Translations under genes and position numbers: made by a program
IMG/VR virus record: IMGVR_UViG_3300010371_000003
Span: 1-64,000 of that record
Length of the DNA: 64,000 bases
Direction: 5' to 3' (one strand)
Source: a virus
Part shown: positions 24,890-59,105 of the stretch, piece after piece
How the letters are laid out: the number at the start of each line of letters is the position of its first letter
How positions within the stretch are numbered: the first letter of the stretch is position 1
Notes under the pieces: generated by a model
Told to the model about the DNA's origin: nothing
What the model saw: the letters and a program-made list of their open reading frames with translations, nothing else
The model's database searches: none

Positions 24890-25225
24890 TCAGCCTTGCG
24901 AGAGGCGTTCGAACGCGCGGCCGAGGTTTTCGAAAATGACGGAGATCTCGTCGCGCATGTGGTCAGACAGCCCGTGGCAGTGGGCCGCCAGCTTCACGTA
25001 GATGGCGCGGACCTGAGCGTCGCTTCCACCTCGCTGCACCAGGCGTTCCACGTCGTCGAGGAGGTGCTCAGTGCGTTCGTGGGCGCCTCGAGAATCTCGG
25101 AGCCGAAGCCGGACGCGAGCGATGCGCTTGAGGATGTCCTCGATCCCGGCGGGGACGATGATCGGGGTGCGTTCCTCGTCTTCGTCAAAACCCGTAGGGC
25201 CAGGCGTCTTTGGCTCATTCGACAT
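24890..25225 (-). CDS. Helical hypothetical protein
   Basis: 111 residues. After an acidic N-terminus (SNEPKTPGPTGFDEDEERTP) it is a long amphipathic helix set with basic and acidic pairs. No transmembrane segment. It sits inside the membrane-protein block; role unknown. Confidence 0.6.
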   Translation of the reverse strand: MSNEPKTPGPTGFDEDEERTPIIVPAGIEDILKRIARVRLRLRDSRGAHERTEHLLDDVERLVQRGGSDAQVRAIYVKLAAHCHGLSDHMRDEISVIFENLGRAFERLSQG

Positions 25226-25231
25226 CCCATC

Positions 25232-26079: not shown

Positions 26080-26579
26080 GGCTTGCCGGCCGCCGGTGCT
26101 ACTGGCGGGCGGTAGGTCTCGGCGTCCAGACGTCGGATCACCTCGTCGGTCAGGTCCTCGGCCGACCACAGGCGGCCGTCCGGCTGGACGTCGGCGGTCG
26201 AGAGGTGGCGCTCGGCGGCGATCCGCGCGACGACGGGGCGGACGGCGTCCCGGAGCTTCTGAACGACCTGCGCCTCGTGCCGGGTTACCTCGGCCTGGAA
26301 CGTGGCCTGCTTCTGGGCGGCCACGGCCCGCATCGTCTCGAGCTGCTTGTCCTTCGCCTTCTCGGCGGCGGCAAGTTGCTGGGACATCTTATCCAGCTCG
26401 TCCTGGCGAGACTTGAACACCGTCGCGTGCTCGTCAGCCAGGCGCTTGCCCAGTGCAGACTCCGAGGCCACCCGGGCGAGGTCGACCCAGCCGGCCGTCG
26501 GGGCAGCGGGCGGTGGCAGACGGCCGGCGCAGCCGGCCAGCATGGCGACAATGACGAAGGTCTTCGGGATCAGTTCCAT
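26076..26579 (-). CDS. Skp/OmpH-like periplasmic lipoprotein
   Basis: 167 residues. MELIPKTFVIVAMLAGCAGR gives a lipoprotein signal with Cys17. Next, GWVDLARVASESALGKRLAD (about 30-49) and a long Lys/Gln/Glu coiled coil (about 60-110). Then VRPVVARIAAERHLSTADVQ and DLTDEVIRRLDAE (about 146-158). This is the layout of Skp/OmpH outer-membrane-protein chaperones, where DLTDEVIKRLN-like C-termini are typical. ATG 26579 overlaps the SGNH stop by 10 bp. A phage Skp homologue is unusual; it might chaperone the exported proteins encoded next to it. Confidence 0.75.
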   Translation of the reverse strand: MELIPKTFVIVAMLAGCAGRLPPPAAPTAGWVDLARVASESALGKRLADEHATVFKSRQDELDKMSQQLAAAEKAKDKQLETMRAVAAQKQATFQAEVTRHEAQVVQKLRDAVRPVVARIAAERHLSTADVQPDGRLWSAEDLTDEVIRRLDAETYRPPVAPAAGKP

Positions 26580-27316
26580 GTGTTCGCGTACGCGGCGACC
26601 GCGCTCCAAAGTGTGTGGCCCATCGTGGTGTAGCCGGAATCAGTCGGGTGGACGCCGCCGACCTGGACCTGGGCGCCCGTGACGATCGAGTGCATGCCGA
26701 CGAACAGGCACGGCGGCAGCGACGAGCAGATGGACGGGATCAACCCGTTGTAGGTGACCGACACAGACTCAAGCGCGTCGTTGCGCGGCACCATGTCCGT
26801 GACGACGAACAGCGCGCCGGGCGCCGCGCCTCGCGCTGCAGTCAACATCGTGGTCAGCTTGCTCGCCGTCGTCGCCGCCGAGTCGCCGTTGGTGATGTTG
26901 TTCGTGCCGTTGTTGGCGAAGATGACGATGTCGGGGTGGCCGTACTGCCAGAACAGCGGGCTGGCCGACGAGATCAGCCCATCGATCTGCGCGCCCGGGA
27001 ACCCAAAGCAGGCTTGCTGATTGAACCCGGCGTCGCCATCGAGCTGATTGCCGACCATGCGGGGCTTCTTCCCCGCGGCGACGGCGTCCTGGACGAAGAC
27101 GTACCGCCATCCAGCCTCGAACAGCGCCGCAGTCGAATTGACCCCCGCGGTAATCGAATCGCCCACCGTCGCGATGGTCGTCGCTCCCAGGGTCGGGACC
27201 TTCGTCGCGACGGCGTGCCACTGATATTGCTTCTGGACGACCTGGGCGCTGGCGGGCGCGGCCATCGCGACAGCGGCCACGACGGTGATCGCAACCCCGA
27301 CGAGCACCCGCCTCAC
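26570..27316 (-). CDS. Secreted SGNH/GDSL hydrolase
   Basis: 248 residues. Signal peptide RRVLVGVAITVVAAVAMAAP with cleavage after ASA (24). Block I ATVGDSITAG with S54, block III FANNGTNN (134-140), block V GGVHPTDSGY with H223. The Asp of the usual DxxH (position 220) is Gly, so activity may rely on a dyad. Such enzymes remove acetyl or acyl groups from sugars and lipids in the periplasm or outside. Located in the exported-protein block. Confidence 0.82.
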   Translation of the reverse strand: MRRVLVGVAITVVAAVAMAAPASAQVVQKQYQWHAVATKVPTLGATTIATVGDSITAGVNSTAALFEAGWRYVFVQDAVAAGKKPRMVGNQLDGDAGFNQQACFGFPGAQIDGLISSASPLFWQYGHPDIVIFANNGTNNITNGDSAATTASKLTTMLTAARGAAPGALFVVTDMVPRNDALESVSVTYNGLIPSICSSLPPCLFVGMHSIVTGAQVQVGGVHPTDSGYTTMGHTLWSAVAAYANTWN

Positions 27317-28260
27317 GGTGTCACCGCCGCGTCGATCATGACGTTGTAGACGTACGCGCTCGGCTGCGTGGCCGCCACGGCCGTAACCCCTTGGACGATG
27401 GCGTACCAGTTGCCGCCGGCCGAGGTGTGTGGGAACGCCGTCGCGGCCGGGCCAATCGTCACGTCGCCGGTGTCGGTCGTTCCGTCGTAGCCCTCAAATT
27501 TCAGCGTCGTCCCGTCCGACCAGATCATCACCGAGTAGAGCGAGCCGGCGTTGTACGGCAGCGTCGCGGTCGTCGTCGGCGTCGTCGTGTTCGGCAGCCC
27601 CCCGGCGACGTGGCCCGTGAGCGCGCCGAATTGCGTCCCGAAAAACCCGACCGCGGCGAACCCGTCGGTGCCTTGGTAAGGACCGATGATGAAGGTCGCG
27701 TTCGCGTCGGTGGTGATGAGCCTGAACTGTCCACCGAAACACCAGCGCTGGCTTCCGAGTGCCCCGATCGTCTTCTTCGAGTTGACGTTGTTGACCAGCG
27801 CGTACCCGGTGCTTCCCACGGACGGCCCGGTCAGCTTGTAAACCGCCGTCGCGTCGAAGGCGTCGCCACCGAACGCCGTGCCCGTTCCCGAGGCGCCGGG
27901 CGTCACGCCCGAGTTGCTGCCGTTCTCGAATCCCCAGGGTTCGACCTTTTCAGTCCGGGGGTCGGCGATCCCGGCGCTCGATCGGCACTTCTGGGCTACG
28001 TAGTCGCGCCAGCCGCCCGACCCTGACGACGTCACGGTGGAGCTTCCGCCGCCGCCGATGGCAGGGTTGCCGCCGTAGGTTGCCGCGAGGACGACGACAG
28101 AGGCGCCGGTACCCGAGTACTCCGCGGACACGTCGGACCGCCTCTTGGCGTGCTTGTAGGCATGGCTGTGAGCGCTGGCCGGAATGGCCAGCCCGGCGAC
28201 GACGACCAGGACCGCCGATGCGACGGCCGTCCGTAGCTTTCTCGCGATGATGGTGCGCAT
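27313..28260 (-). CDS. Exported beta-rich protein
   Basis: 315 residues. Signal peptide at 1-30 (RTAVASAVLVVVAGLAIPAS, cleavage ASA-H). A His-rich start (HSHAYKHAKRR) and Gly/Ser-rich strands follow. The C-terminal 150 residues (WCFGGQFRLITTDANATFII, NAGSLYSVMIWSDGTTLKFE) look like a jelly-roll or concanavalin-like carbohydrate-binding fold. Probably a surface or fibre-associated protein. Coupled by ATGA to the SGNH gene. Confidence 0.65.
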   Translation of the reverse strand: MRTIIARKLRTAVASAVLVVVAGLAIPASAHSHAYKHAKRRSDVSAEYSGTGASVVVLAATYGGNPAIGGGGSSTVTSSGSGGWRDYVAQKCRSSAGIADPRTEKVEPWGFENGSNSGVTPGASGTGTAFGGDAFDATAVYKLTGPSVGSTGYALVNNVNSKKTIGALGSQRWCFGGQFRLITTDANATFIIGPYQGTDGFAAVGFFGTQFGALTGHVAGGLPNTTTPTTTATLPYNAGSLYSVMIWSDGTTLKFEGYDGTTDTGDVTIGPAATAFPHTSAGGNWYAIVQGVTAVAATQPSAYVYNVMIDAAVTP

Positions 28261-28263
28261 TCT

Positions 28264-28740
28264 TCAGCCCCCCTTTCGCATGTCGCTGATCGTCACGTTG
28301 CCGGATCCAGTGCAACCGGACAGGCCGAAGCGGACGTATCCCCACGGCCACATTGGGTACTGGACGGGGATGAGGTTGACCCCAGACGCAAGGGCCGGCG
28401 GCGACGTCGTCAGCGTGATCGAGAACCACTTCGTCAGGTCCGAGAACGAGTCGACCGTCGACTGATAGGAGTTGCTCCCGTACATCGTGATCGTCGTGCA
28501 GGCGGCCGTGCTGGACCCGTCCGTTCTGATCTCGTACCCGAGCAGATCGATTGCCCCCGTGTATCTGGGCGAGCTGAGCGCGGAGCTGGTCGACACCGCG
28601 ACCGTTTCACTGCTCGATGCGTTGATCGCCCCCGATCCCAGCTTCCCCGGCGTGTTCGGCGGCGGCGCGTTGTGGATGTTGTCTCCGCAGCCGGCGAGCG
28701 CCGCGGCCACGGTGAAGGCGAGAACGATTCGACGACGCAT
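28264..28740 (-). CDS. Lipoprotein
   Basis: 158 residues. MRRRIVLAFTVAAALAGCGD has a lipobox LAGC with Cys18. The mature part is Ser/Thr-rich beta (SSETVAVSTSSALSS, TITMYGSNSYQSTVDSF), ending VRFGLSGCTGSGNVTISD. AAAGGG precedes ATG 28740. Reads like a small outer-membrane-anchored adhesin-like protein. No family recognised. Confidence 0.65.
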   Translation of the reverse strand: MRRRIVLAFTVAAALAGCGDNIHNAPPPNTPGKLGSGAINASSSETVAVSTSSALSSPRYTGAIDLLGYEIRTDGSSTAACTTITMYGSNSYQSTVDSFSDLTKWFSITLTTSPPALASGVNLIPVQYPMWPWGYVRFGLSGCTGSGNVTISDMRKGG

Positions 28741-28769
28741 GGTACTGGCCCTTTCTTTGTTGGAGGTGT

Positions 28770-29318
28770 TCATCGCGACGCCAGCTCGAGGACGACGGGA
28801 ACGGCCAGCCATTGCGGCAGGACGTCCGACTCGACGATGAAGGTCGACTTGGAGTAGACGTCCAGGACGCCCGACCGTCTGACGACGACGCCGGGCGGCT
28901 TCGTGGGATGTGCTGAGACGGATTCCCATTCTCCCATCGGTCGACACTCGTCGTCCTTGCAGACGTACTGCGTACTGGCCCGGGACAGACGGAGGCTCGT
29001 CTCCGGCGGCCCGGCCGGCCTGTCCGCGCCCGGCGTGCGCGGCGCCGCCTCCAGCTTCTTCGCGGGAGCCTTGGCCCTTTTCGCGCCAGCCTTCTTCGGC
29101 GCAACCTTCGCCTGATACGCCTGGCACTCGACCTGCGTCGCGAACCAGACACCGCCGCCGGTCTTGTCGACGTACAGCCAGCCGGAGCAGTCCCGACCCG
29201 TAGTCGCGTCGCACATGTCGTGATTGTCGACGCACCCGACGGCGCCCTGGGCGTAGGCGCCCCGCTCGACGCCGACGCCGACCGCGACGGTCGCGAGAAT
29301 GAGGATGATTCTACGCAT
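28770..29318 (-). CDS. Exported Cys-containing protein
   Basis: 182 residues. Signal peptide RRIILILATVAVGVGVERGA with cleavage AYA-Q near 24. The mature N-terminal part has four cysteines (GCVDNHDMCDATTGRDCSGW, later VECQ), then a Lys/Ala/Pro linker (about 72-95) and a second part with CKDDEC. Probably periplasmic or surface located. Function unknown. Confidence 0.65.
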   Translation of the reverse strand: MRRIILILATVAVGVGVERGAYAQGAVGCVDNHDMCDATTGRDCSGWLYVDKTGGGVWFATQVECQAYQAKVAPKKAGAKRAKAPAKKLEAAPRTPGADRPAGPPETSLRLSRASTQYVCKDDECRPMGEWESVSAHPTKPPGVVVRRSGVLDVYSKSTFIVESDVLPQWLAVPVVLELASR

Positions 29319-29320
29319 GA

Positions 29321-30013
29321 TCAGCTATCCTTTCCGGTTGGGTTGGCGGCCGAGTAGAGGCCGATGTGCTCGACGAGGTGGTGCGTCTGCTCGAAGGTCC
29401 AGCCGTGGAAGCCGCCCACGACTCCGATTGCGCGGTCCACCCACACGGCGCCGCCGACCAGGAAGCGATAGCGCGTCTCGGCGTCCGCCAGCGCGCAGAG
29501 CGAGCGATGGGGGATCTTCACGGCCTGGGACTGGCGGAAGGTCACCGCCGGGTGAACGCCTACGGCACGCCCGAAGCTGAAAAACGACGTCCACGCCGCT
29601 CCCTCTGGGACCTCATGCCGCAGCATCTCCGCGAACGCGCCGCGGTGAACAGCCCTTACATCGTCTTCAAGAAACAGCAGGTCTGCGCCCATCGCCCAAG
29701 CAGTCCGGAGCGCCACCCACCCTGGGGTGATGTTCTCGTTGAATGCCCCCCGCGCGCGGTTGCGCGGCGGCAGGACTGCGCTCGTCCAGCCGTCGGCCAC
29801 TACTTCTGGGCCGTCGCACACCAGCAGGCGCGGAACGTCCGGCGTCACCTCGGCGTCGACGGACGCCAGCGTGCCCGACAGGTAGCCCGCCCCGTGCGGT
29901 CGCGGGCAGGTCAGAACCGAGATCATCAAGCTGGTGGAGGCCCGCGCCGGGCGTGACCCCAGCGCCGCAACCGCTGCGGCGGCGCAACCGATAAAGTGTC
30001 GTCTCGTGTGCAT
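29321..30013 (-). CDS. Glycosyltransferase-like protein with twin-arginine signal
   Basis: 230 residues. The N-terminus MHTRRHFIGCAAAAVAALGS carries a Tat-like motif TRRHFIG. Then ISVLTCPRP, RLLVCDGPEVVADGW, and AWAMGADLLFLEDDVRAVHR with an E-D-D triad (116-118) in a GT-A DxD-like position. Length fits a small GT-A fold. Export by Tat implies folding in the cytoplasm and action in the periplasm, which is odd for nucleotide-sugar enzymes. It may be a binding-only relative. Confidence 0.6.
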   Translation of the reverse strand: MHTRRHFIGCAAAAVAALGSRPARASTSLMISVLTCPRPHGAGYLSGTLASVDAEVTPDVPRLLVCDGPEVVADGWTSAVLPPRNRARGAFNENITPGWVALRTAWAMGADLLFLEDDVRAVHRGAFAEMLRHEVPEGAAWTSFFSFGRAVGVHPAVTFRQSQAVKIPHRSLCALADAETRYRFLVGGAVWVDRAIGVVGGFHGWTFEQTHHLVEHIGLYSAANPTGKDS

Positions 30014-30026
30014 GCATGCCCCCAGG

Positions 30027-33000
30027 TCAGTAAAGGACCGCCTGACAATCGATGTTCATCTCGGTCACGCTCTTGCCCGTCGCCGAGTCCGTCCGATAAA
30101 CGGCGACGAACAGCATCGCCCCGGATGGGATGCTTCCCGAGAACGTTGCCCGTCCGAGCGGACCCAGCGTCGTCCCCCAGTTGCTCGTCGTGAGCGACGC
30201 GGCCAAGTTGTAGGCCGACAGGTCGGTGGAGTAGTAGAGGCCGAAGACCTCGGTGTCAGTTCCGCTGCCGCTCGTCGCTCCGCTGTAGTAGTTGGAGCAG
30301 GTGAACACGCCGCCGGTAAACGTCCGCGTCGTGGTGTACCCAATTGGGAATGTGGCATCAACGCCTCGGTGAGCATTGAGTGTCAGGCCCACCGAACCGC
30401 TGACTGTTGTGTACACGTCTGTATTGGACGTCTGACTTCCGAGGGACCCGTTTGGGAAGAAGATGACCGCCATGTTCGCGGTCAACCCGACACCGCTGGC
30501 TGACAGGGCCTGGGACCATGTCATGGTCTGAGACGCGGGAGACGTAATGGGGGCCTGGTAATCGACGCCAGCGACGGCCGCCTGCAACACATGGCCAGTG
30601 CTCGTTTTGACCATGCTTGTGCCGGCGACGCTGTCCACCTCCAGGTTGTTCTTGACGACCGTGTCGCCGGCGTTCGTGAGCCGCATCCCCTCGGCCCACG
30701 ACGTCCCGTTGAACACCGACAACACCAGGTCGCTCGTTATCGCGGTCCCGGGGACGCTGTTGCCGACCGCGACAGCCTTGGTCGGTGAAGCATCTTTCCA
30801 GAACTGCGTGGTCACGCCCGTAGAAGAGGTTGGGATTTCCTGAAGTCCATTCGCGTTGTTGGTCGAGAGTGTCCCGCTCGAATCGAGCAAAAGGTGACTG
30901 TTGCCGCCGGACATCAACGTAAACAGACTGGAATTGCCGACGCCGGTCCCGATGTCAAAGCGTCCGTTCAGCTTGGAGATCTCCTGCGTGGCGCTCTGGT
31001 TCAGCGCCAGCGCAACAGTGCTCGCGTCGGACCCGTCGATTTCCACGGGACCGCCCTGAACCCAGATCGCGGGCCGCGTCGTGCATGACGCCGATCCCGT
31101 GCAGGTCCACGGCCCGGCGACGGTCAGGGTCGCGAGCTCGTCGACGGTGACCGCGGAGCTCGACGTGAGCGTGTTGGCGCCCAGGTAGAGGCCGCCCTGG
31201 TGCGAGGTGACGTGCGTCGTCCCGGTCAGCGTCTCGGTCACGCCGTCGAAACGATAGAGGCCCTGCAAGCTGGCCGCGCTCGCAGTCGACTGCGGGGTCA
31301 TGGACCACTCGACCGTCGTGGGCGACGTCGGCGCGAGCGGCGTGCCGCTGTTCGTCCACGTCGCGCCGACCAGGTTAACGCCCTCGATGACGCCGCTCGC
31401 GGTGATCGACTGACGAGTCGTCCCGCCCGTGTACGAGTTGAATGCGTTGGCGCTCGACGTCCCGGCGTAGAGATTGCCGCCGGTCTTGTTGATTTGCTGG
31501 TCGGCGGCCTGGTTCAGCACGAGCGCGTAGCCGCTGCCGTTCGACGACCCGATCGTCACCGCGCCGGTCGTCAGGGTGAAGGTGCTCGCACCGGTCAGGC
31601 CGGTGCCGGTCCCGATCGCGATCTGGGGCGACGCCGGGTAGGTCGTCGTGGCAGCCGAAAGCGTGCCACCGGATAAGGTCAGACCGGACAGCGCGACGCG
31701 CGTAAGCTGGCCGCTGGCCGCGTTGGCGTAGACGAGCGCGTCGGACCCGCCGGCCAGGTTCGGGATCTGAACCTCGCCGGTCGACAGCGCGATGACCCGC
31801 GAGATGTTGCTCGACATCAGCGTGGCCATGTCTGGGCCCGTCGTCCCGAAGTCCACGCGGCCGCCCGACTTGGCGATCTGCTGGGTGCCGGCCTTGTTCA
31901 ACAGGATGGACACGCCGCTCGCGTCCGAGTTGTTCAGGGTCGCCCGCTGGTTCGCGCTGTCCCAGACGAAGCCGGCGTCACCGGTCAGGATCGTCCCGTT
32001 GCTGTAGGCGACGCGCCCGGACCCAGGCACGGCTCCCGAGGTAAGCGCGCCGGCGGCGCCGTAGAGGACGCCCGTCGGGTAGGTAATCGGCGCCTGGTAG
32101 TCGAACCCGGGCGAGGCGATCCCGACGTTGCCGCTGGCATCGGTCTTCAGCATGCCGGCGCTGTAGGCCGTCAGCTGGAGCAGCCCGCCCGCGCCGACGA
32201 CAACGCGGCTGATGTTGCCGGTCATGAGGGTCACCTGAAAAGCCCCGGCCGTTCCGACGTCGAGACGACCGTTGAACTTGGCGAGCTGCTGGGTCGCGGA
32301 CTCGGTCAGCGCGAGCGCGACGGACGACCCATCGTCGCCCGTGAGCGTCAGGTGGTGCGCGGTCACCAGGTGGGTCACGGTGCTCTCGGTGAACGTCGAA
32401 TCGCCGACCGGGCCCGTCGCCGCCGCGACCAGCACGTCGGGCGCCGCCGGCCAGCCCGTGCTGAGGTTCGAGATCGAGTCACCGGTCGCGAGGTAGTCGA
32501 GGGGGTGCGTCGCGAGCGCGAGCTGCCCGCCGGTCGACGGGAGGATCTTGGCCATGCCGCCAGCCGCGTACTGGGGCAGGAACACCGCAGCCGAGGTCAG
32601 GGTCAGCGCAAGCACCCCGCTCGGCGCGAAGTGGATGTAGTTGCCGGTGCCGCTGCTGGTCTCGATGGTGAGCCGGTTCGGACCGCCATCGCTGCCGGCG
32701 TAGGTCGAGCTGCCGAGGAAGATGTCGGCGATGGTGCCGACGTTGTTGATCAGCCGCAGCTCCGAGTAGGCGCTGTTTCCGGCGTTGTTGTTCTGGACGT
32801 ACGCGCCGACGCCCCCCGTCGAGTTCCCGACGATGTGCAGCGGCGCGGATGGCGACACCGTGCCGAGACCGAACCTATGAGCTGCTGGATCGTAAAAGAA
32901 GTTCGAGTGGTCCTCGGCGAGCCCGCCGTTCCAGAAAATGACTGACCCGTTCGAGAAGCTGCCGAGGCCGGTGGCGGGGACCGTTCCCGTCAGCGTCGAG

Positions 33001-34622
33001 TAGGCCAGCGACTGGCAGACGACACCCGCACCAGTCGTCTGGAAGATCTGGCCGGTGCCGGTGCAGGTGACGTCCTGCACGTTGGCCGTCCCGACGCCAG
33101 GGTTGCCCACCAGCGACAGGCCGGCGCTCTGGCGAAGCTTCGCGTTGCTGACGACGTTGGGCTGGATCGTGGCCGGGACCGTGCCGGGGCCGGTGAACGC
33201 GACGTCGCCCGTCCCGCCAGTCACGTAGGCGCCAGGCCCCTGGATGTCGGCTCCCCCGGTGGTGGCACCGCTGGCCTGGATGGTGGCGGCGGCCAGCGCC
33301 GACCCGGTCCACTTCAGGACGCCCGTCGGCGGCGCGATCGTGCTCAGCAGCTGCGCGCCGGTGGCGATGGACGGGAGGCAGTCGCCGGCCGAGACCGCGC
33401 ACCACAAGGGGCCAGTCGTCAGGCTGCCCAGGTTGAAGGCATTCACGGGCGCGCTCGTGGCCCGCCGGACCAGGTAGTAGCCGTTCGCGTTGGCGCCCGT
33501 GGTGGCTGAATTGGACGGCCGCCACGCCGATCCGTTCCAGGTCAGGACCTGGCCGCTGGTGGCGCCGTATTGGGACAGGGTCAGCGTGATCGGTCCGACG
33601 GCGGGGCCGACCCCCTGAACGTCGCCATCAAATCCGATGTTCGTGGTGGGCGTGACGAACGTCTGCGCGGTCGCGCCGGTGATTCGCCCGTAGACGTCGC
33701 GCTGGATGGCCGCGATCCCGCTTCCGCCGTAGTTCGTCTCGGGGCCCAGGACGGGGAGGTCGAACGTCGGGTTGCCGCCCGATCCGTTGCCGTTGCCGAT
33801 TGAGATGGTGCCCAGCGGCGATGTCAGCGTGCGTGTGGCCGCCCAGGCGCCGGCCGAGGCGACCCCGAACCCGGTGCCCCCAGGCGCCGAACTGGCCGGG
33901 TTGGCCGGCGCCCAGGCGCTGCCGTTCCAGCCCAGGATCTGGCCCGACGTGGCGCCGCCCTGGGCGATGCTGGCCGGGGGCACGAGCGCCCACGTCAGCG
34001 CGCCGGCCGCCCGCTGGAAGACCTGCCCGTCAGCCGTGGCCGGGACGTCCTGGGGCGCCGCGGTGGCGTTCGTGGCGTTGGCCTTGGCCGTCAGGGCCGG
34101 CATCGTGGCGGCCTGGGCGTTGCCCACGGCGCCGCTGGCGATGCCCGCGCTTCCGACCTGACCCCAGCTGGCCGCCGGGCCGGCGCCGGTTACCAGCACC
34201 TGGCCCAGCGTGCCCGGCGTCAGGTTCCCCAGCGGCAGCAGCCCGGTCACGTAAATGCCGGCGTCGAGGTGGAGCGTCAGCGCCGCTGACCCGGGGCCGG
34301 CCGCCGTCCCGCCGCCGGTGAGCGCGTTCAGGTAGGCGCCGGGCCCCTGAAAGTCAGATCCGCCCGTCGTCGCGCCGGCCGCCTGGGCGACGCCGCAGCG
34401 GAACAGCGGCGAGCCACCCGTGAACACGACCACGCACGGAAGCCCGCTCCCCGGCATGTCGCCGCGACGCACCGGCTCGCCGCCGGTCACCGGGGTCAGT
34501 AGGTTTCGGATCCGGAACTGGTTCTGAAAATCCTGGTTCGTGTAGACCGGTGCATCGGCGCGCGCGGCACGGACGGCCGTCAGCACCAGCAGTAGCGCGA
34601 GGATGACCCGGCGGCCGAACAT
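30027..34622 (-). CDS. Very large repeat-containing fibre-like protein with signal peptide
   Basis: 1531 residues, Gly/Ala/Ser/Thr-rich. The N-terminus FGRRVILALLLVLTAVRAAR is a signal peptide. The body has tail-fibre phrases such as SGQILGWNGSAWAPAN and GVDYQAPIT, several times. Four units of roughly 60-100 residues share ALxLNQSATQQIxKxxGRxD then a Gly/Ser strand region (near 30970-32340). The C-terminal 130 residues (after SGPASQT-like sequence) look like a receptor-binding tip. Phage tail fibres normally lack signal peptides, so this may be a host-surface adhesin or decoy made in the lysogen. Confidence 0.75.
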   Translation of the reverse strand: MFGRRVILALLLVLTAVRAARADAPVYTNQDFQNQFRIRNLLTPVTGGEPVRRGDMPGSGLPCVVVFTGGSPLFRCGVAQAAGATTGGSDFQGPGAYLNALTGGGTAAGPGSAALTLHLDAGIYVTGLLPLGNLTPGTLGQVLVTGAGPAASWGQVGSAGIASGAVGNAQAATMPALTAKANATNATAAPQDVPATADGQVFQRAAGALTWALVPPASIAQGGATSGQILGWNGSAWAPANPASSAPGGTGFGVASAGAWAATRTLTSPLGTISIGNGNGSGGNPTFDLPVLGPETNYGGSGIAAIQRDVYGRITGATAQTFVTPTTNIGFDGDVQGVGPAVGPITLTLSQYGATSGQVLTWNGSAWRPSNSATTGANANGYYLVRRATSAPVNAFNLGSLTTGPLWCAVSAGDCLPSIATGAQLLSTIAPPTGVLKWTGSALAAATIQASGATTGGADIQGPGAYVTGGTGDVAFTGPGTVPATIQPNVVSNAKLRQSAGLSLVGNPGVGTANVQDVTCTGTGQIFQTTGAGVVCQSLAYSTLTGTVPATGLGSFSNGSVIFWNGGLAEDHSNFFYDPAAHRFGLGTVSPSAPLHIVGNSTGGVGAYVQNNNAGNSAYSELRLINNVGTIADIFLGSSTYAGSDGGPNRLTIETSSGTGNYIHFAPSGVLALTLTSAAVFLPQYAAGGMAKILPSTGGQLALATHPLDYLATGDSISNLSTGWPAAPDVLVAAATGPVGDSTFTESTVTHLVTAHHLTLTGDDGSSVALALTESATQQLAKFNGRLDVGTAGAFQVTLMTGNISRVVVGAGGLLQLTAYSAGMLKTDASGNVGIASPGFDYQAPITYPTGVLYGAAGALTSGAVPGSGRVAYSNGTILTGDAGFVWDSANQRATLNNSDASGVSILLNKAGTQQIAKSGGRVDFGTTGPDMATLMSSNISRVIALSTGEVQIPNLAGGSDALVYANAASGQLTRVALSGLTLSGGTLSAATTTYPASPQIAIGTGTGLTGASTFTLTTGAVTIGSSNGSGYALVLNQAADQQINKTGGNLYAGTSSANAFNSYTGGTTRQSITASGVIEGVNLVGATWTNSGTPLAPTSPTTVEWSMTPQSTASAASLQGLYRFDGVTETLTGTTHVTSHQGGLYLGANTLTSSSAVTVDELATLTVAGPWTCTGSASCTTRPAIWVQGGPVEIDGSDASTVALALNQSATQEISKLNGRFDIGTGVGNSSLFTLMSGGNSHLLLDSSGTLSTNNANGLQEIPTSSTGVTTQFWKDASPTKAVAVGNSVPGTAITSDLVLSVFNGTSWAEGMRLTNAGDTVVKNNLEVDSVAGTSMVKTSTGHVLQAAVAGVDYQAPITSPASQTMTWSQALSASGVGLTANMAVIFFPNGSLGSQTSNTDVYTTVSGSVGLTLNAHRGVDATFPIGYTTTRTFTGGVFTCSNYYSGATSGSGTDTEVFGLYYSTDLSAYNLAASLTTSNWGTTLGPLGRATFSGSIPSGAMLFVAVYRTDSATGKSVTEMNIDCQAVLY
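30970..32340 (-). repeat. Four degenerate tandem units in the fibre-like gene
   Basis: Units centred near 32305, 31900, 31520 and 31000 encode variants of LALNQSATQQIAKxxGRxD-G. They are separated by about 380-520 bp and differ in sequence, so they are diverged internal duplications rather than recent repeats. They define modular shaft repeats. Confidence 0.6.
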
Positions 34623-52040: not shown

Positions 52041-52691
52041 TTAGCGGGCGGCCGCCGGCCGACCGTGGTTCTTCATCTTTTCCGCCCAGGCCACCGGGTC
52101 CGTGCGGAAGAGCTCGATGTCTTCGACCTTGATCCCCATCTGCACGGCCACGACGCGGGTCGCGTCCGTGATCTCGGGGGAGCCGGGCTTCTTCTGCCCG
52201 ACCTCGTCGGTGCTGACCTGCTTGCCGCGCGCCTCGATGCGCCCGCGCAGGTACGAGATCCCCTCCTTGGAGGGCTTGCCGGCGCCCTTGGCGAGCGCGG
52301 CCGCCTCGAAGATCTCCCGGTCGCCGGGGGCGATCTTCGCGGCCTTGATCCCGTCGTCGAGGACGGTGTTCAGCTCGGTCGCCAGCGCGGCGGCCTCGAT
52401 CGAGGCCTGCTTGGCCACCAGTACGTCGGCCTGGCCGGCCTTCTCCTTCCAGGTCTCGACGACGCCGATGGCGCCGGCGTCCGACTCCTGCCCGGTCAGC
52501 TTGCGCAGGTCCGCGCGCAGCAGCAGCATCCCGTGCACGGCCTGTGCACGCTCGGCGGCGCCGGCGCTCGAGCCGAGCTGCAGCGTCCCGGTGAGCACGG
52601 TGACCTCGTGCTGCGCCTGGCGCAGCGTTGCGATCTCCGTCTCGAGCTGGCGGTTGCGGTCCTGGAGCGCTTTGATCTCGGCCTCGTTCAT
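52041..52691 (-). CDS. Nested scaffold protein (gpZ-like) inside protease gene
   Basis: ATG 52691 (MNEAEIKALQDRNRQL) is in frame with the protease gene and preceded by GGAG six bases upstream. The product would be 216 residues of mostly helical scaffold. In Mu the Z protein is a C-terminal in-frame product of the I gene, as in lambda C/Nu3. The internal Shine-Dalgarno is better than the one at the full-length start. Confidence 0.65.
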   Translation of the reverse strand: MNEAEIKALQDRNRQLETEIATLRQAQHEVTVLTGTLQLGSSAGAAERAQAVHGMLLLRADLRKLTGQESDAGAIGVVETWKEKAGQADVLVAKQASIEAAALATELNTVLDDGIKAAKIAPGDREIFEAAALAKGAGKPSKEGISYLRGRIEARGKQVSTDEVGQKKPGSPEITDATRVVAVQMGIKVEDIELFRTDPVAWAEKMKNHGRPAAAR

Positions 52692-53219
52692 GACGGTCTC
52701 CTGCGTGGTGGTGGCGGCGGCGCCGGCGGCGATCTGCTGGACTCCATCCAGGCCGGCCAGGTTGAGAATCGCGACGTTGTGGAGGGCGAACGGACGGCGG
52801 ATGCCGTCTTCGGTGTCGATGTAGTCGAACCACGGCGAAAAGAGGCTGTACTCACCGCCCTTGATGCGGCCGTACGCCTCCTGGGTCCACATGCAGCCGA
52901 CCGCCAGCAAGGCGCCGTCGCGCACCTCGATGTCGAAGTCGCCGGCGGACTTGCCCTGCTCCGCGGTGGCGTACCGCAGAGCCATGCCGTGGTTGTAGTC
53001 GAACTTCAGCGGGTTCGCCTTCTGCGCCCGGTTCTGCATGATGAACGCGGCGGCGATCTCGTCGAAGGTCACCGGCCCGTAGTCGCTCTCGTTGACGCCG
53101 GGCTTGAAGATCACGAACTCGGTGACGGGCGTCTTGTCGGCCAGCACCGGCAGCGGGGACGCGGTGCGCCCCGTGAATTCGCCGGTGCCGATCCTGCCCT
53201 TCGGAAGTGTCACGTCCAC
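52041..53219 (-). CDS. Prohead protease / scaffold (Mu gpI-like)
   Basis: 392 residues. VTEFVIFKPGVNESDYGPVT, FDYNHGMALRYATAEQGKSA with the H in NHG and the S of KSAGD, and YGRIKGGEYSLFSPWFDYID match the Mu I protease. The last 210 residues are a helical scaffold beginning QDRNRQLETEIATLRQ. Preceding capsid and decoration genes agree. Catalytic residues inferred, not shown by alignment. Confidence 0.85.
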   Translation of the reverse strand: MDVTLPKGRIGTGEFTGRTASPLPVLADKTPVTEFVIFKPGVNESDYGPVTFDEIAAAFIMQNRAQKANPLKFDYNHGMALRYATAEQGKSAGDFDIEVRDGALLAVGCMWTQEAYGRIKGGEYSLFSPWFDYIDTEDGIRRPFALHNVAILNLAGLDGVQQIAAGAAATTTQETVMNEAEIKALQDRNRQLETEIATLRQAQHEVTVLTGTLQLGSSAGAAERAQAVHGMLLLRADLRKLTGQESDAGAIGVVETWKEKAGQADVLVAKQASIEAAALATELNTVLDDGIKAAKIAPGDREIFEAAALAKGAGKPSKEGISYLRGRIEARGKQVSTDEVGQKKPGSPEITDATRVVAVQMGIKVEDIELFRTDPVAWAEKMKNHGRPAAAR

Positions 53220-53290: not shown

Positions 53291-53995
53291 TCAGGCGGCC
53301 AGGCGCTCGTCGAGCTCGTTGCCGATTCCGTCCGGGTAATCGGACGTGTCTGGGTCCCAGTCGCCGCCGCCGGCGCCGGCGGGCGGCGACCCGAAGCCAG
53401 CCGACACCTCGACGTCGGGCGGGTCGGTCGTGATCCCCTCGGCCTCGGCCTCGACTTGCGACACCGCGGTCGCGATGCACCTGCAGTTCGGGTGGAGGAT
53501 CGGATAGTGGCGCTGCCACCATGGGTGATCCTGGGGCAGCATGACGCCGCCGCAGCGCTCGCAGATGTCGCACGTGCGCGGACCGTCGCCGATGGCGTCG
53601 AAGCGCCAGTACGGGCGCGCCTTGGCCACCGCCGGCGACGTCATCACGTCGTAACGCCCGGCGCTGTAGGCGTCCATCACGTTGGTCCGGAAGATGGTCT
53701 CGAGGCGCGCGGGGTCGTCGCCGCCCCACTCGTCCGCCAGCTGTGGGCCGACGTCGGCTTGGAAGTCCTCGAAGGGGGTTCCGTCCTCGATCGCTCTCTG
53801 CAGCGCCTCGTACACCTGGGCGACCAGGTCGGCCTGGGCGACGTTCGCCACCGTGAACGCGAAGTCCTGCTCTGCCTCCTCGAGGGCGTCGTATTGCTCC
53901 TCGGTCATCGGCACCAGCGCGCGGAACCGGTCGATCGCCTCTTGGAACCGGACCGGGTCGTCGCCGACGTCGTCGCCGTGGTCGTGCGCGTCCAC
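53291..53995 (-). CDS. Head morphogenesis protein (Mu gpF / SPP1 gp7-like)
   Basis: 234 residues. DPARLETIFRTNVMDAYSAG, ARPYWRFDAIGDGPRTCDIC and YPILHPNCRCIATAV: the TCxIC... HPNCRC arrangement is the zinc-binding part typical of this family. N-terminal Asp/His-rich start and helix. Known role: minor head protein associated with the portal. In Mu it directly follows the portal; here the lipoprotein/papain block lies between them. Confidence 0.85.
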   Translation of the reverse strand: MDAHDHGDDVGDDPVRFQEAIDRFRALVPMTEEQYDALEEAEQDFAFTVANVAQADLVAQVYEALQRAIEDGTPFEDFQADVGPQLADEWGGDDPARLETIFRTNVMDAYSAGRYDVMTSPAVAKARPYWRFDAIGDGPRTCDICERCGGVMLPQDHPWWQRHYPILHPNCRCIATAVSQVEAEAEGITTDPPDVEVSAGFGSPPAGAGGGDWDPDTSDYPDGIGNELDERLAA

Positions 53996-54004: not shown

Positions 54005-54349
54005 CTACGGCTTTGCGACGACCTCGAACACCTGGTGCTTGCGCCCTGCGATAGCTGGCCACGTCACCACCTCGCTGCTGGCGAGCGTGACGATCCAGAC
54101 GATCCGGTAGACGCCCGGCGCCGGCGCCGGCGCGAACGTAAAGGCAATGGTCGCCGGCTGCCCCGTCACCGGGACGACATCGCCCGGCGCTTCGACGGCC
54201 GCCGCGCTCGCATCGTAGATCCGATAGTGGACGGTGACCGAGCCGCCGGTCGGGTCGATCGCTGTGCCATCCTCGTCGTGGATCGACTGCGACCAGGTGA
54301 CGCCCGTGTCGCCCTCGCCGAGGGTGAAGTCGATACCGGCTGCCGTCAC
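54005..54349 (-). CDS. Beta-rich hypothetical protein
   Basis: 114 residues from GTG 54349. TAAGIDFTLGEGDTGVTWSQ, GGSVTVHYRIYDASAAA, PATIAFTFAPAPAPGVYRIV: an immunoglobulin-like beta sandwich, as found in phage head or surface proteins. Follows the Cys-rich lipoprotein by GTGA and lies just upstream of gpF. Unknown function. Confidence 0.6.
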   Translation of the reverse strand: MTAAGIDFTLGEGDTGVTWSQSIHDEDGTAIDPTGGSVTVHYRIYDASAAAVEAPGDVVPVTGQPATIAFTFAPAPAPGVYRIVWIVTLASSEVVTWPAIAGRKHQVFEVVAKP

Positions 54350-54657
54350 TTGCACTTGGTGTCGACGGCCGCGCACGACGACTGCCGGACGCGGCAGTCG
54401 AGGTCCCACGGCGCGATGCCGACGGTTTGGTTGTTCGAGCACACCGTCGAGCACGGCACGCCCAGGTCGGTGTCGGCCGCCCAGGTGCAGCCCAGTTGCT
54501 GGCCGCGACGGCAGTAGTCCAGGCAGGTGGCCGGTCCGCCGTCCAACGGCGCCGGCGAGCTGGCGTCCTTGGATGGGCGGACCACCGGCGCCGGGCCCGG
54601 GCACCCCTGGCAGCCGGCGCCCAGGGCCAGCAGCAGGACAAGCCCGAGGCGCCTCAC
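54346..54657 (-). CDS. Cys-rich lipoprotein
   Basis: 103 residues from GTG 54657 (GTGA). RRLGLVLLLALGAGCQGCPG: lipobox LGAGC with Cys16, so the mature protein is lipid-anchored. Cysteines recur in TCLDYCRRGQQLGCTW and CSTVCSNNQ. The N-terminus is short and basic. Directly after the papain gene; a surface or periplasmic partner of the protease is plausible. Confidence 0.7.
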   Translation of the reverse strand: MRRLGLVLLLALGAGCQGCPGPAPVVRPSKDASSPAPLDGGPATCLDYCRRGQQLGCTWAADTDLGVPCSTVCSNNQTVGIAPWDLDCRVRQSSCAAVDTKCK

Positions 54658-55484
54658 GCGCGCCTCCCCGTGAAGTCGACGACCCAGATGTCCTCGGTCA
54701 AGACCCACTCCATATAGGCGTAGGTGAACCAGCAGCGGCCGTTGTCGCCCCAGTTCGGGCCCCAGGAATTCGGGACGCGGACCCGCGCGTTCGCCGGGTC
54801 GTCACCGGAGCCCATCAGGGCATGGCCGCCGGCGAGGGGCTGGTCCTGGGGCACGTCGACGGTGAAGTCGGGCCCGAGCTTGTTCTCGCAGAAGTCCTCG
54901 GTCACCTGCGTCCCGAAGACGATCGGCAGGCGCGCCGCCAGCGCCTTTCGGATGTCGTCGATGCGGCGGCCGCCCTCCGTCAGGATGCGCGTCGCGTGGA
55001 ACGGCGCGATCGCGTCGAACGCCTCGCGGTACGCCTCGGCCGAGGGCTTGGTCTTGTACGGCCCGTTGGGGTCGTCGCTGTACGGCCAGATATGCTCTGG
55101 CGGCAGGCCCAGCTTCTGGATCGCCTCGAACGCGTCCGAGATGATCCCGCCGTCGAACGACTCGACGTCGTGCTCGAGCGCGTGGGCGAAGTAGACCACC
55201 CAGAGGCGCGAACCGAGCTCCGGGACCGGCGACGCGCCGTTCAACACCTGCAGCGCGCGGATCGCCTGCAGGGGGGCGTTCGCAAAACAGAACGGCGCGC
55301 CGCCCTGGTTCACGACCTCGCCCACCGCCGCGTCGATGTCCATCGTGCCGAGGCTGCCAGCGGCCGGCAGCGCCGCTAGCTTCGGCGCCGCGTCCGGGTA
55401 CGGGAGCCCGAGCTTGTGGCGCCCGTCGGGCTTGTAGCCCAGGCCGCGGCCGGCGTGGGCCAGCTTGGTGCCGCGCGCGGGCAT
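54654..55484 (-). CDS. Papain-family (C1) cysteine peptidase
   Basis: 276 residues from ATG 55484 (TGATG overlap). Catalytic set visible: Q60 and C66 in NQGGAPFCFANAPLQA, H221 in LAGGHALMG, N239 in VPNSWGPNWGDNGRCWF. This is the C1A order Q-C-H-N with the SWG signature. The Trp after the catalytic Cys is Phe. No signal peptide or recognisable inhibitory pro-region. Typical bacterial C1A members are rare in phages. It sits between lipoprotein-like genes in the head region, so it may be a virion-processing protease or a host-interaction factor. Confidence 0.88.
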   Translation of the reverse strand: MPARGTKLAHAGRGLGYKPDGRHKLGLPYPDAAPKLAALPAAGSLGTMDIDAAVGEVVNQGGAPFCFANAPLQAIRALQVLNGASPVPELGSRLWVVYFAHALEHDVESFDGGIISDAFEAIQKLGLPPEHIWPYSDDPNGPYKTKPSAEAYREAFDAIAPFHATRILTEGGRRIDDIRKALAARLPIVFGTQVTEDFCENKLGPDFTVDVPQDQPLAGGHALMGSGDDPANARVRVPNSWGPNWGDNGRCWFTYAYMEWVLTEDIWVVDFTGRRA

Positions 55485-55648
55485 CACCAGCACCATCCGT
55501 GGTATCCAAGTTTCTCGGGCGCGCCCTCCGGGTCGGCCTTCGCCAGTCTGCGCAGCTTCCGGTGAACGCGATTTTTCTCGAACGCGCGCGACTTGCGCGC
55601 ACCGGAATGAAGGTGCTGCGCGAGCTTCTCGGGACGGCCCAGGCTCAT
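55484..55648 (-). CDS. Small basic protein
   Basis: 54 residues, SLGRPEKLAQHLHSGARKSR onward, with RVHRKLRRLAKA. ATG 55648 overlaps the lipoprotein stop and its TGA overlaps the papain ATG. Very basic, maybe DNA binding. Function unknown. Confidence 0.6.
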   Translation of the reverse strand: MSLGRPEKLAQHLHSGARKSRAFEKNRVHRKLRRLAKADPEGAPEKLGYHGWCW

Positions 55649-56247
55649 CGCGCCACGTCGCCCCGCCAGCACTCGCACCCGCCGCCGGGCACCGGCGTGC
55701 CGTGGCGTGCACCGCAGTAGGTGTCGCAGGTGGCCAGCGCCTGCGCGTCGCCTGCACCGATGCGGCGCATGCGCTGAACGTCCCTCGCCGCCCCCATGAT
55801 CCATTCGTGCTCGTCAGGACTGAGCTGGTTCCACGACAGGAACACGCCGCGCTCGCTGAGCAGCTTTGCCCGCTGGTCGCGTACAACCTCCTCCGGCGTC
55901 AACCCAGTCTTCCCGACGCGCGCGGCGGCGTCCTTGGCGATCTTGTCGATGACGCACTGGACGTCGGCCTTCCCGCTCGGCCCGATCTCTTCGGCGACCG
56001 TCTGGAGGCCTTCGATCACACAGGCGGGCAGCGCCTGGCCGCCGGAGCTCAACTCGCACACCAGCGCCGTTTCGATCCCGTTCACGAGGTCGCCGATCGC
56101 GCCCTTCACGTCGGGGCCGAAGCACTGGCGGATGTCGTCGGGGACGTCCTTCACCTTCTTGGGCAGGAAGCAACCGGACGCGCCGGCGCCGAAGGCGGCC
56201 ACGAAAGCGATGCCCATCCTCAGGGCGATGACTCTGTTTGGTCTCAT
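55645..56247 (-). CDS. Lipoprotein
   Basis: 200 residues with GGAG upstream of ATG 56247. RVIALRMGIAFVAAFGAGAS then GCFLPKK: lipobox-like ASGC at Cys26. The mature part is alpha-helical with six cysteines (CFGPDVK, ALVCELS, PACVIEG, VQCVIDK, ATCDTYCG, GCECWRGD). No known family. Belongs to the lipoprotein/papain block. Confidence 0.65.
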   Translation of the reverse strand: MRPNRVIALRMGIAFVAAFGAGASGCFLPKKVKDVPDDIRQCFGPDVKGAIGDLVNGIETALVCELSSGGQALPACVIEGLQTVAEEIGPSGKADVQCVIDKIAKDAAARVGKTGLTPEEVVRDQRAKLLSERGVFLSWNQLSPDEHEWIMGAARDVQRMRRIGAGDAQALATCDTYCGARHGTPVPGGGCECWRGDVAR

Positions 56248-56516
56248 CGGGTCTGCTCCTTCTTTTCCTTGCGCTTGGCGTCGGTCGGGAACGGCGCGCA
56301 GGCCGGGTCCGTGTTCCACGGGTTCGTGCACGGCAGGCACGACCGATCGTTCGGCGCGCACGGCTTCGGCGGCGGGTTGTTGCCGCAGCCGGAGACCGCC
56401 CCCGCGAAAAGGCTGATGGCCACGACCAGCAGCACGTCCGCGCTGACTACCTGCAGCACGTTCCAGATCGTCTTCACGGGATCGATGGTCAGGGCGTTTT
56501 TGGACGACCCCAACAA
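56244..56516 (-). CDS. Lipoprotein or anchored Cys-rich protein
   Basis: 90 residues. A hydrophobic stretch VLQVVSADVLLVVAISLFAG (about 20-39) ends SGCGNN, so a late lipobox near Cys44 is possible. Then PKPCAPNDRSCLPCTNP with four cysteines, and a basic end KRKEKKEQTR. First gene of the lipoprotein/papain block. Confidence 0.6.
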   Translation of the reverse strand: MLGSSKNALTIDPVKTIWNVLQVVSADVLLVVAISLFAGAVSGCGNNPPPKPCAPNDRSCLPCTNPWNTDPACAPFPTDAKRKEKKEQTR

Positions 56517-56538
56517 TGGGAGCCGCTACGATGCGCGG

Positions 56539-56736
56539 ATGCCGCGCCCGCCGCGCTCCGCGAACGACCCGCGGGTGCGCCCTTCGACCTGGCGGAAGAC
56601 GCTGCGCGCCGAGGACCTGGTCGACGAGCTTGCGGCCAAGCGGGCAGAGGACAGGATCGTCGGCGAGGTGCCGGGGCGCGCCCAGGGCGCGGTGCGTTCA
56701 ATGCTCCGCGGGCTTCGCCGGCGCCTGTTCGGGTAG
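56539..56736 (+). CDS. Small + strand hypothetical protein
   Basis: 65 residues, MPRPPRSANDPRVRPSTWRK, then AEDLVDELAAKRAEDRIVGE and RSMLRGLRRRLFG. Natural-looking helical end. The 3' end overlaps the convergent RHH gene by 39 bp. No Shine-Dalgarno fits well; an alternative frame starts at 56531. Moderate support only. Confidence 0.45.
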   Translation: MPRPPRSANDPRVRPSTWRKTLRAEDLVDELAAKRAEDRIVGEVPGRAQGAVRSMLRGLRRRLFG

Positions 56737-56916
56737 GGCCACCTTTTCCCGTTCGCGCTGGGCGAAGTAGGCGCCCAGGGCGTCCTCGAGGATATCCCGC
56801 TGCGCGCGGCCCTCGAGGCGCGCTGCCTGAATCAGGCGGTTCTTGACGCTGGTGGGGATCCAGACGGCGAGCTGCGAAAAGCCGGGCTGGTTCCGGCGGA
56901 CGTTCGGCGCTGTCAC
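56698..56916 (-). CDS. Ribbon-helix-helix-like protein
   Basis: 72 residues. GFSQLAVWIPTSVKNRLIQA and QRDILEDALGAYFAQREREK: strand followed by two helices as in Arc/CopG proteins. ATG overlaps the portal stop (four bases). May regulate the late operon or the + strand neighbour. Confidence 0.6.
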   Translation of the reverse strand: MTAPNVRRNQPGFSQLAVWIPTSVKNRLIQAARLEGRAQRDILEDALGAYFAQREREKVALPEQAPAKPAEH

Positions 56917-59105
56917 TTCGACGTCACGTCCCCGACCTGTTTGTGCGCCGACAGGCGCCCGCCCAGGTTCGCCATGATCCGCGTCTTCGCGACGGCCGCG
57001 GCGAGGGACTTCGGGTCCATCGTCTTGTAGAGCCGCAGCAGGCGCTGCTCGAGGTCCTGGGGCCCGCGCGCCGCCTCGATCTCGTGCTTCACCGCGACCA
57101 GGTCGACGGCCATCGCGCGCGCGCCGAGGGTGGTGGCCGCGCGCTCGAGGCCCTCGGCATACTTCAGCGCCTTGGGGCTGGGCGTCCGCTGGGCGGCCTG
57201 GCGCGCCTCGATGGTGCGGCGGAACAGCGTGGTCAGCGCGGTGATGGTGGCGGCGCTGCTGGCGCGAATCTTACCGGTGCCGGTCCGCCGCTGCAGCTTC
57301 GCCTTGAACGCCGCCAGGGGCACGACCGACATGCCGCCGAAGGCGCGGTCACCGTCGTTCCGGTGCGCGAGGTAGGCCGCCTGGGCGGCGTCCGGCGACG
57401 CGAAGCCAAGCATCACCTTGTCCTCGTCGAACTTCTTGAAGTCCGGCCCCTGCAGCTGGTGCACGACGTGGACGTTCGCGGCGTCCTCGACGGGCCCGAG
57501 GTAGCAGTCGAGCTCCTCATCGTCGGCGCCGACGTGGCCCTCGATGTAGCCGTAATCGCACTGCATCTCGGTCGATCCGCTCACGCGGCCGTCGGGACCG
57601 TCGTCGCGCCAGTAGCGCGTCGATCCCTTGGGGTTCTCGATCGCGATGGGAAGCCCCGCGAAGGTCGTCCGCCTGACCACGGCGGCCGCCATCTGGGCGG
57701 AGCGCTTGCGGCCGCCCTGCTTCGCGCCGGGCGCCTCGACGTCGTCCTCGGGGCCTCCGCTGGCGGCTCGCGCGCGGGCGGCGTCTTCTTCCGCCTGGAC
57801 GGCCTGCCGGGCCGCCTGCTCCTCTGGGGTGATGGTCGGCAGGCCCGCGGCCTCGAGGACGGCGCGGTCGTCGATCGGCGCGCCCGCCGTCTTCATCTGC
57901 ACCAGGCCGGTGCCCATCTTGTTCAGGGTGTCCGCCTTCGACTGCTGGTCCTCGGGCGGGTCGACCTGCCACATCGGCCGCGGCGCGACCGTCATGTCGC
58001 GGTAGTTGTGCTCGGCGTCCCAGGTCAGGCACTGCTGGTGCAGGCAGGTGCCGATCCCGGCGTCCTTCCGCAGGTAGTTCAGGGACACGGCGGTCGCGCC
58101 GTCCATCCCCAGGCTGCCCTTGCCCTCCTTGACCTCCGTCGAGAGGTTGTGGCCGAGCAGCGCGATCGCGAGGTCGTTGTTGACGTCTTCCTTCGAGGCC
58201 TTGAACCCTTGCCAGGTCTGGGCCTTGGCCTCGACGAGATCGAGGTCGAACTTGCCGACTTTTGGGTCAATGCTCTGCTCGCACATCACGGCGCTCTCGC
58301 CGTTTCGGTTGGCGACCTTCTCGAAGTACTCGTTCTTGACGTCCTCGGGTGCCTCGGCCGGAACGATGGCCTTGTCGATGGCCAGGCCGTTCTTTTCGTT
58401 CTGTCGGCTCCAGTCGCGGTCCGTCCACTGCCGCTTGGTGATCAGGCGGGCGAGGCTGCGCACCGCGCCCTTCTTGAAGGCATCGGTGTAGCCGTATGGG
58501 CACCACAGGATCCACTTGCCGTCGCTGCGCGGGTTTTCGGTGATGTCGGGCAGCGTGATCTCCCCCTGCGCCGTCATGAGGCGGTAGCGGAAGATCGACC
58601 AGTCCCAGCGCAGCCACTGCGGGTTCCAGACCTTGAGGCGCGACGTCCAGCGCAGGCGCTTCCCGTTTCGGTACTGGGTGCCCGGCGCGACGTCGACCCA
58701 GTCTTCCTCGTCGTCCGTCCGCCAGATCAGCTCCCCGATCCCGATTCCCATCAGGATGCCCCAGCCGATGAGGTCCTCGAGGACTGGCGCCGGGAACTGG
58801 GCGTCCCAGCGGCCGGGCAGATCGTCGACGCCGCCCAGGTTGGCGGCGACGCGCTTCGAGATCGCCCGGTCATCGGCCGGCTGGACGATGCGCGGCACGG
58901 ATTCGAGGGCGTCCAGCCGCTTGCGCATCACGCCGTAGAAGCGGTCGTCCCGCCACAGCTGGTCGGCCATGATGGCCGCGTCGCGGAACTGGCCGTTCTC
59001 CAGCCGGGCGACCGTCGCGGCGATCTGGCCGAAGTCGTCCCACCCCGGGTAGGTCAGGGTGGGGAGCTGGCTGACCGCCTTGGTTAGGATGATCTCGACC
59101 GGCAC
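56913..59105 (-). CDS. Portal protein (Mu gp29-like) fused to InPase-like domain
   Basis: 730 residues. The N-terminal 390 residues match gp29/DUF935 portals: DFGQIAATVARLENGQF, DDRFYGVMRKRLDALESVP, RWDWSIFRYRLMTAQGEITL, LAIALLGHNLSTEVKEGKG. Then an Ala/Glu-rich linker (about 440-480) and a domain with LPIAIENPKGSTRYWRDDGP, MQCDYGYIEGHVGADDEELD, DKVMLGFASPDAAQAAYLAH and FGGMSVVPLAAFKAKL, the pattern of the InPase-like domain described in phage polyvalent proteins. A helical C-terminus follows. The fused domain is about residues 495-620; its role is unknown. Confidence 0.82.
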   Translation of the reverse strand: MPVEIILTKAVSQLPTLTYPGWDDFGQIAATVARLENGQFRDAAIMADQLWRDDRFYGVMRKRLDALESVPRIVQPADDRAISKRVAANLGGVDDLPGRWDAQFPAPVLEDLIGWGILMGIGIGELIWRTDDEEDWVDVAPGTQYRNGKRLRWTSRLKVWNPQWLRWDWSIFRYRLMTAQGEITLPDITENPRSDGKWILWCPYGYTDAFKKGAVRSLARLITKRQWTDRDWSRQNEKNGLAIDKAIVPAEAPEDVKNEYFEKVANRNGESAVMCEQSIDPKVGKFDLDLVEAKAQTWQGFKASKEDVNNDLAIALLGHNLSTEVKEGKGSLGMDGATAVSLNYLRKDAGIGTCLHQQCLTWDAEHNYRDMTVAPRPMWQVDPPEDQQSKADTLNKMGTGLVQMKTAGAPIDDRAVLEAAGLPTITPEEQAARQAVQAEEDAARARAASGGPEDDVEAPGAKQGGRKRSAQMAAAVVRRTTFAGLPIAIENPKGSTRYWRDDGPDGRVSGSTEMQCDYGYIEGHVGADDEELDCYLGPVEDAANVHVVHQLQGPDFKKFDEDKVMLGFASPDAAQAAYLAHRNDGDRAFGGMSVVPLAAFKAKLQRRTGTGKIRASSAATITALTTLFRRTIEARQAAQRTPSPKALKYAEGLERAATTLGARAMAVDLVAVKHEIEAARGPQDLEQRLLRLYKTMDPKSLAAAVAKTRIMANLGGRLSAHKQVGDVTSK

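Follow-up and report, generated by a model that had tools for sequence, protein, structure and literature searches.

A papain-family protease paired with a cysteine-rich lipoprotein in the head operon of a Mu-type phage: a recurrent gene pair with a putative accessory role in lysis

The window, that is, the whole stretch of DNA that we analysed, spans positions 1 to 64,000 of the viral record IMGVR_UViG_3300010371_000003 (64,945 bp in full; GC 69%; virus unclassified). Its head genes are Mu-type—portal, gpF, maturation protease, and major capsid protein—and its tail sheath is contractile. The locus of interest is flanked upstream by a Mu-type portal gene (56913-59105, minus strand; PF06074, 8.9e-25) and downstream by a gene for a gpF-like minor head protein (53291-53995, minus strand; PF04233, 5.4e-17; phrog_220, 4e-50), with a head-maturation protease (phrog_328) at 52041-53219. 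The C-terminus of the portal protein carries an InPase domain (PF18823, 1.3e-31). The gpF of the window matched that of Myxococcus phage Mx4 at 46%, and a Meiothermus phage gpF was equally near. The portal gene is followed directly by gpF or another head-morphogenesis gene in relatives (L002, MW202777, Mae-JY09, DPMD02, and MMP7), while in Mx4 one ORF on the scale of 44 aa separates the portal gene from the gpF/head-morphogenesis gene. Since portal and gpF adjoin in the relatives, the block that lies between them in the window is an insertion.

The inserted block covers ~2.9 kb of the minus strand (~54005-56916) and holds seven ORFs, which encode, from 5′ to 3′, a 72-aa ribbon-helix-helix (RHH)-like protein, P0005, P0003, P0002, P0001, P0004, and a 114-aa beta-rich protein. 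The original prediction had described the five ORFs from P0005 to P0004 (54346-56516); all five are present between portal and gpF, but the real insert is longer and takes in the 72-aa and 114-aa ORFs as well. Consecutive genes from P0005 through the 114-aa gene overlap by 1 to 4 bp. GC content at third codon positions (GC3) was 0.89 to 0.95 in four of the five originally noted ORFs, similar to the flanking portal (0.95) and gpF (0.92) genes, the exception being P0002 (0.76 over 54 aa).

The 72-aa RHH/CopG-like ORF (56698-56916, minus strand; GC3 0.85) forms the 5′ end of the block, overlaps the portal stop codon, and had weak matches to an Arc-like PHROG (0.25) and in NCBIfam (0.01 to 0.04). 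P0005 (56244-56516, minus strand; 90 aa) is a putative lipoprotein by sequence and hydropathy, with a long N-terminus followed by a single hydrophobic segment that ends in the lipobox AVSGC and by a short, Pro- and Cys-rich tail that is Rz1-like in composition only. It has no family match in Pfam or PHROGs and, with a TTG start that lacks a clear Shine-Dalgarno sequence, appears to be the least certain gene of the block. P0003 (55645-56247, minus strand) would encode a 200-aa lipoprotein with the lipobox ASGC and nine cysteines, and P0002 (55484-55648, minus strand) a 54-aa basic protein (13 K/R versus 5 D/E) whose gene overlaps both neighbors. At the 3′ end, the 114-aa beta-rich ORF (54005-54349, minus strand) overlaps the P0004 stop codon and looks BppU-like by eye; it had nothing above threshold in Pfam or PHROGs.

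P0001 (54654-55484, minus strand; 276 aa) was assigned to the xylellain-type C1A papain proteases by Pfam, phmmer, and AlphaFold2 (AF2)/Foldseek. It matched Pfam Peptidase_C1 (PF00112, E = 4.3e-7) and PHROG 16701 ("peptidase"), and the closest solved chain by sequence was xylellain (3OIS; phmmer, 1.1e-26). The AF2 model (pLDDT 89.3) had the same chain as its best PDB match in Foldseek (1.6e-22), with cathepsins next. The predicted catalytic set—Q60, C66, H221, and N239—stands in papain order and was invariant in the first five-member alignment; among 144 dereplicated homologues the catalytic Q and C were present in all 144, and the H wherever it was aligned. The predicted fold and catalytic set thus confirm P0001 as a complete C1A papain-family protease, as first proposed. 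By inspection, the protein is without a signal peptide, lipobox, or N-terminal hydrophobic segment. When compared with prohead protease families in Pfam and PHROGs, it matched only C1/peptidase families.

P0004 (54346-54657, minus strand; 103 aa, GTG start) is a Cys-rich lipoprotein whose start overlaps the protease stop by 4 bp. It has a signal peptide and lipobox, followed by a twin CX3C domain; six of the cysteines form the core of this domain, and a further two covary. A family alignment of 20 sequences (A5) shows the lipobox Cys, a variable linker, the pattern C-x3-C-x7-C-x11-C-x3-C, and then one to three more cysteines; by inspection, C87 and C102 of P0004 are mostly either both present or both absent in it. 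AF2 modeled residues ~41-103 as four short helices at pLDDT 88 to 95, and no PDB fold matched the model. Neither this family nor the other lipoproteins of the block had a match in Pfam, NCBIfam, PHROGs, or PADLOC, and a paired lipoprotein from another contig (L099) had none among cultured phages at E 1. The block does not have the make-up of a two-component spanin (Rz/Rz1), in which an i-spanin with an N-terminal transmembrane segment and a coiled coil is matched by a short, Pro-rich o-spanin lipoprotein: no i-spanin was found in it, and P0004 is a Cys-rich helical domain.

As had been noted, the papain-family gene is an insert in a head operon and is genetically coupled with lipoprotein genes. 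The accompanying premise that papain-like enzymes are rare in phages is wrong, since at least 518 viral stretches with C1A enzymes were confirmed in one scan; acquisition of xylellain-type C1A enzymes by tailed phages (Caudoviricetes; Myo- and Siphoviridae) has also been published (PMC10380794). As a single query, P0001 had no match in viral contigs or genome contigs. A tblastn search of the block proteins against C1A loci placed a homologue of P0004 immediately behind the protease gene in three of them. When the lipoprotein family was used as the only query, eight loci came up, five of which were new relative to the earlier scan; in all eight the lipoprotein gene adjoins a C1A gene. In total, the pair of C1A and P0004-type genes was found in the window and 19 further phage contigs, i.e., in 20 dissimilar contigs; the lipoprotein scan of genome contigs, in contrast, found none. 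In 18 of the 19 other contigs the protease gene comes first, with the lipoprotein gene on its 3′ side; the 4-bp overlap seen in the window is often kept there, and a few copies have a gap of up to ~0.5 kb. The remaining contig (L014) has the lipoprotein gene 5′ of the C1A gene with a homing-endonuclease-like gene between them; its assignment is weak (E = 0.03). After dereplication, the 20 paired proteases all group in one clade (SH-aLRT 96 in a quick tree; 100/97 in a careful tree of 73 rows).

Recurrence in 19 other phage contigs indicates that the conserved C1A-P0004 pair is a real two-protein module, undescribed in the sources that we searched; the literature held nothing relevant on phage C1A enzymes with a lipoprotein and lysis. 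Of the five-protein system first envisaged, the conserved pair stands, whereas P0002, P0003, and P0005 had no homologue detected in the loci searched. Because only the pair is conserved, five proteins are too broad a definition, and the system should be redefined as C1A plus P0004, accompanied by upstream lipoproteins that vary. P0003 occupies the position of such an upstream lipoprotein, with positional counterparts in L011, L012, L097, L099, L100, L103, L106, L108, and L115, and by eye a lipoprotein gene lies just upstream of the protease in 10 of the 20 module copies. An automatic detector found one at 5 of 19 paired versus 4 of 82 unpaired C1A genes (Fisher P = 0.011). These upstream lipoproteins are of several types without detectable kinship, and P0003 had no significant similarity to those of other copies by BLASTP or HMM; one type does form a family (L097, L099, L100, L106, and, farther upstream, L109). 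In L012 a domain of the tyrosine/dual-specificity phosphatase type (PF13350, 1e-5) is part of the lipoprotein upstream of the pair (4556-5326), which is unusual among phage lipoproteins.

In seven records (L033, L094, L096, L100, L103, L105, and L106) the pair lies 0.4 to 2.2 kb from holin or amidase genes. A holin-family gene is found 0.4 to 1.3 kb upstream on the same strand in five records, three of which are closely related and one of which has a weak match (E = 0.0026), and four records contain Amidase_2, which in three of them lies within 0.7 to 2.2 kb of the pair, one of these matches being below the curated cut-off; since both families were picked for the search after they had been sighted near some pairs, chance estimates of this closeness are too favorable. 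In L106 the order is transmembrane (TM) protein, amidase, TM/coiled protein, lipoprotein, C1A, and Cys lipoprotein, which reads as a nearly complete lysis order. Unpaired phage C1A genes often adjoin endolysins, in one case followed by an Rz-like spanin. Lysis genes are not the neighbors everywhere: in L101, L109, and L014 the pair adjoins genes of RadC, DnaB type, or homing-endonuclease type. An association with SLT transglycosylases proved not to be general (near the pair in two of the nine records with an SLT gene).

In the window itself, the candidate endolysin is an M15-type enzyme (22415-23002, plus strand; phrog_2649, 2.6e-13; PF13539, 4.6e-6, which is under the curated cut-off) encoded on the opposite strand at a distance of ~31 kb from the module, and its presence led us to drop P0001 as the phage's endolysin. 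Because of this distance, the function of the module is one that we infer. Near the M15 gene, 24499-26609 encodes TM proteins and a lipoprotein (26076-26609) with a charged, coiled-coil-like stretch, and is possibly a separate holin/spanin region of the phage. Further along, a run of proteins with signal peptides is encoded at 27313-34622, one of them Tat-like (29321-30013) and one of 1531 aa; those that were scanned had no PHROG match.

Our preferred reading, which is tentative and which we hold to be possible rather than probable, is that the pair is a late two-protein envelope-attack module in which a holin-released protease works with a membrane-anchored partner in a putative accessory role in lysis. 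A signal-less enzyme with an exported, lipid-anchored partner has the topology of an enzyme that is gated by a holin and has its partner in the envelope. This topology, the recurrence of the two genes together within one protease clade, the holin and amidase neighbors, the endolysins beside unpaired C1A genes, and a C1A domain in one annotated endolysin together favor such a role. P0001 would build up in the cytoplasm and, like an endolysin, reach the periplasm once the holin opens the inner membrane; there, membrane-anchored P0004 could dock or activate it. The protease would then cleave envelope proteins that join the outer membrane and the wall, adding to or replacing the job of the spanins, possibly with P0003 and P0005 as additional partners in the envelope. 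Since separate endolysins exist, P0001 would be at most accessory. The location of the window pair among head genes and far from the endolysin counts against a lysis role, as do the copies with other neighbors (L101, L109, and L014) and the small share of records with an SLT gene near the pair; the cassette may have moved into the head operon, presumably with late expression retained. A bolder form of the proposal, in which the pair represents an undescribed class of lysis effector—a holin-released Cys protease under the control of a dedicated disulphide-rich outer-membrane lipoprotein, opening the outer membrane by proteolysis instead of with spanins—is unlikely.

Several known systems share part of this design. 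The module resembles holin/endolysin/Rz-Rz1 cassettes in combining a signal-less enzyme with membrane-anchored lipoproteins among late genes, with a holin or amidase adjoining in several relatives, but its enzyme is a protease rather than a peptidoglycan hydrolase, its lipoprotein is a disulphide-rich domain, and in the window it lies apart from the endolysin, unlike in classic lysis cassettes. That a lysis enzyme can depend on a membrane partner of its own has a Mu-type precedent in the SAR endolysin gp22 of phage Mu with its dedicated releasin gp25 (PMC9239132), although gp25 is a membrane-tethered cytoplasmic protein and P0004 an exported lipoprotein. The annotated endolysin of Alicyclobacillus phage MMB025 (L006:3890-6154) fuses an N-terminal C1A domain to an Rv2525c-type glycosidase-like domain and PG_binding_1, and thus places a C1A domain within a lysis protein; unlike the C1A-P0004 pair, it is a single fusion from a phage of a Gram-positive host, and no lipoprotein partner was seen. 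Xylellain of Xylella fastidiosa (3OIS; MEROPS C1A) and the phage enzymes of its type share length class, catalytic residues, and, as predicted here, fold with P0001, but coupling to a Cys-rich lipoprotein is confined to the paired clade, most members of which also have a cysteine at position 199, in the S1′ region. This Cys is present in 17 of the 20 paired proteases and in none of the aligned unpaired C1A enzymes; as the 20 form one clade, it may reflect one evolutionary event rather than independent evidence. From an alignment with cathepsin H, we take position 199 to be Gln142 of papain, in the S1′ subsite. We also considered, and dropped, a pairing of Cys199 with an unpaired Cys in the lipoprotein, whose cysteines seem to occur in pairs.

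The main rival to an accessory lysis role is that the two proteins are a protease and its guard, with P0004 as a membrane-anchored inhibitor of early or misplaced envelope damage by the C1A enzyme. Staphopain/staphostatin operons have a comparable layout, and protease inhibitors are commonly small domains rich in disulphides. Strict pairing, translational coupling, and co-inheritance in one clade all fit this explanation, as does the clade-specific Cys199, which suggests an altered cleft that could face the partner. We nonetheless consider it unlikely, given that the P0004 model resembles no solved inhibitor and that the inner membrane would keep protease and inhibitor apart up to the moment of lysis.

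The original prediction had instead suggested superinfection exclusion, a predation-related function, or a virion-carried effector, and no finding here points to any of these. Carriage of the protease inside the head, or its ejection together with the DNA, would explain the site of the insertion, which falls precisely at the portal/gpF boundary, and an unrelated, unpaired C1A gene lies directly after the portal gene, before the next head-region gene, in two other contigs (L030:68-2260, with an SPP1-type portal, and L022:506-3233). There it takes the usual place of the head-maturation protease and may act as one. The window, however, has a separate head-maturation protease, and the other paired copies are not beside homologues of its portal or gpF. 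The C1 peptidase of jumbo phage XacN1 is, moreover, listed as a potential lytic enzyme and is not among the enzymes reported as packed (PMC5852040). A virion-carried role is therefore quite improbable.

We give a similarly low likelihood to remodeling of the host surface late in infection, in which displayed lipoproteins would block receptors and the protease would trim surface proteins, thereby excluding superinfecting phages. Phages are known to use small lipoproteins as exclusion factors, and up to three lipoprotein genes occur in one block. Placement in a late head operon, however, would predict silence in a lysogen and argues against a lysogen phenotype; a PADLOC search (threshold 0.01) returned no known defense family; and exclusion leaves unexplained the obligate pairing with a protease that lacks an export signal. 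A further reading, that the pair is a general moron which is mobile or benefits the host and has no set task in the phage cycle, is doubtful to much the same degree: its genomic contexts vary and the window insertion interrupts a portal-gpF junction conserved elsewhere, but its proximity to lysis genes in the seven records speaks against it.

Some phages that infect Gram-negative hosts have no recognizable spanins. The conserved C1A-P0004 pair, which travels as a unit, is a candidate for another way of breaking the envelope or, alternatively, for a phage-encoded protease with its inhibitor. Either reading, if true, would provide a function for an unannotated lipoprotein family and for one clade of the many C1A genes of phages, whose usual annotation is "peptidase" or hypothetical.
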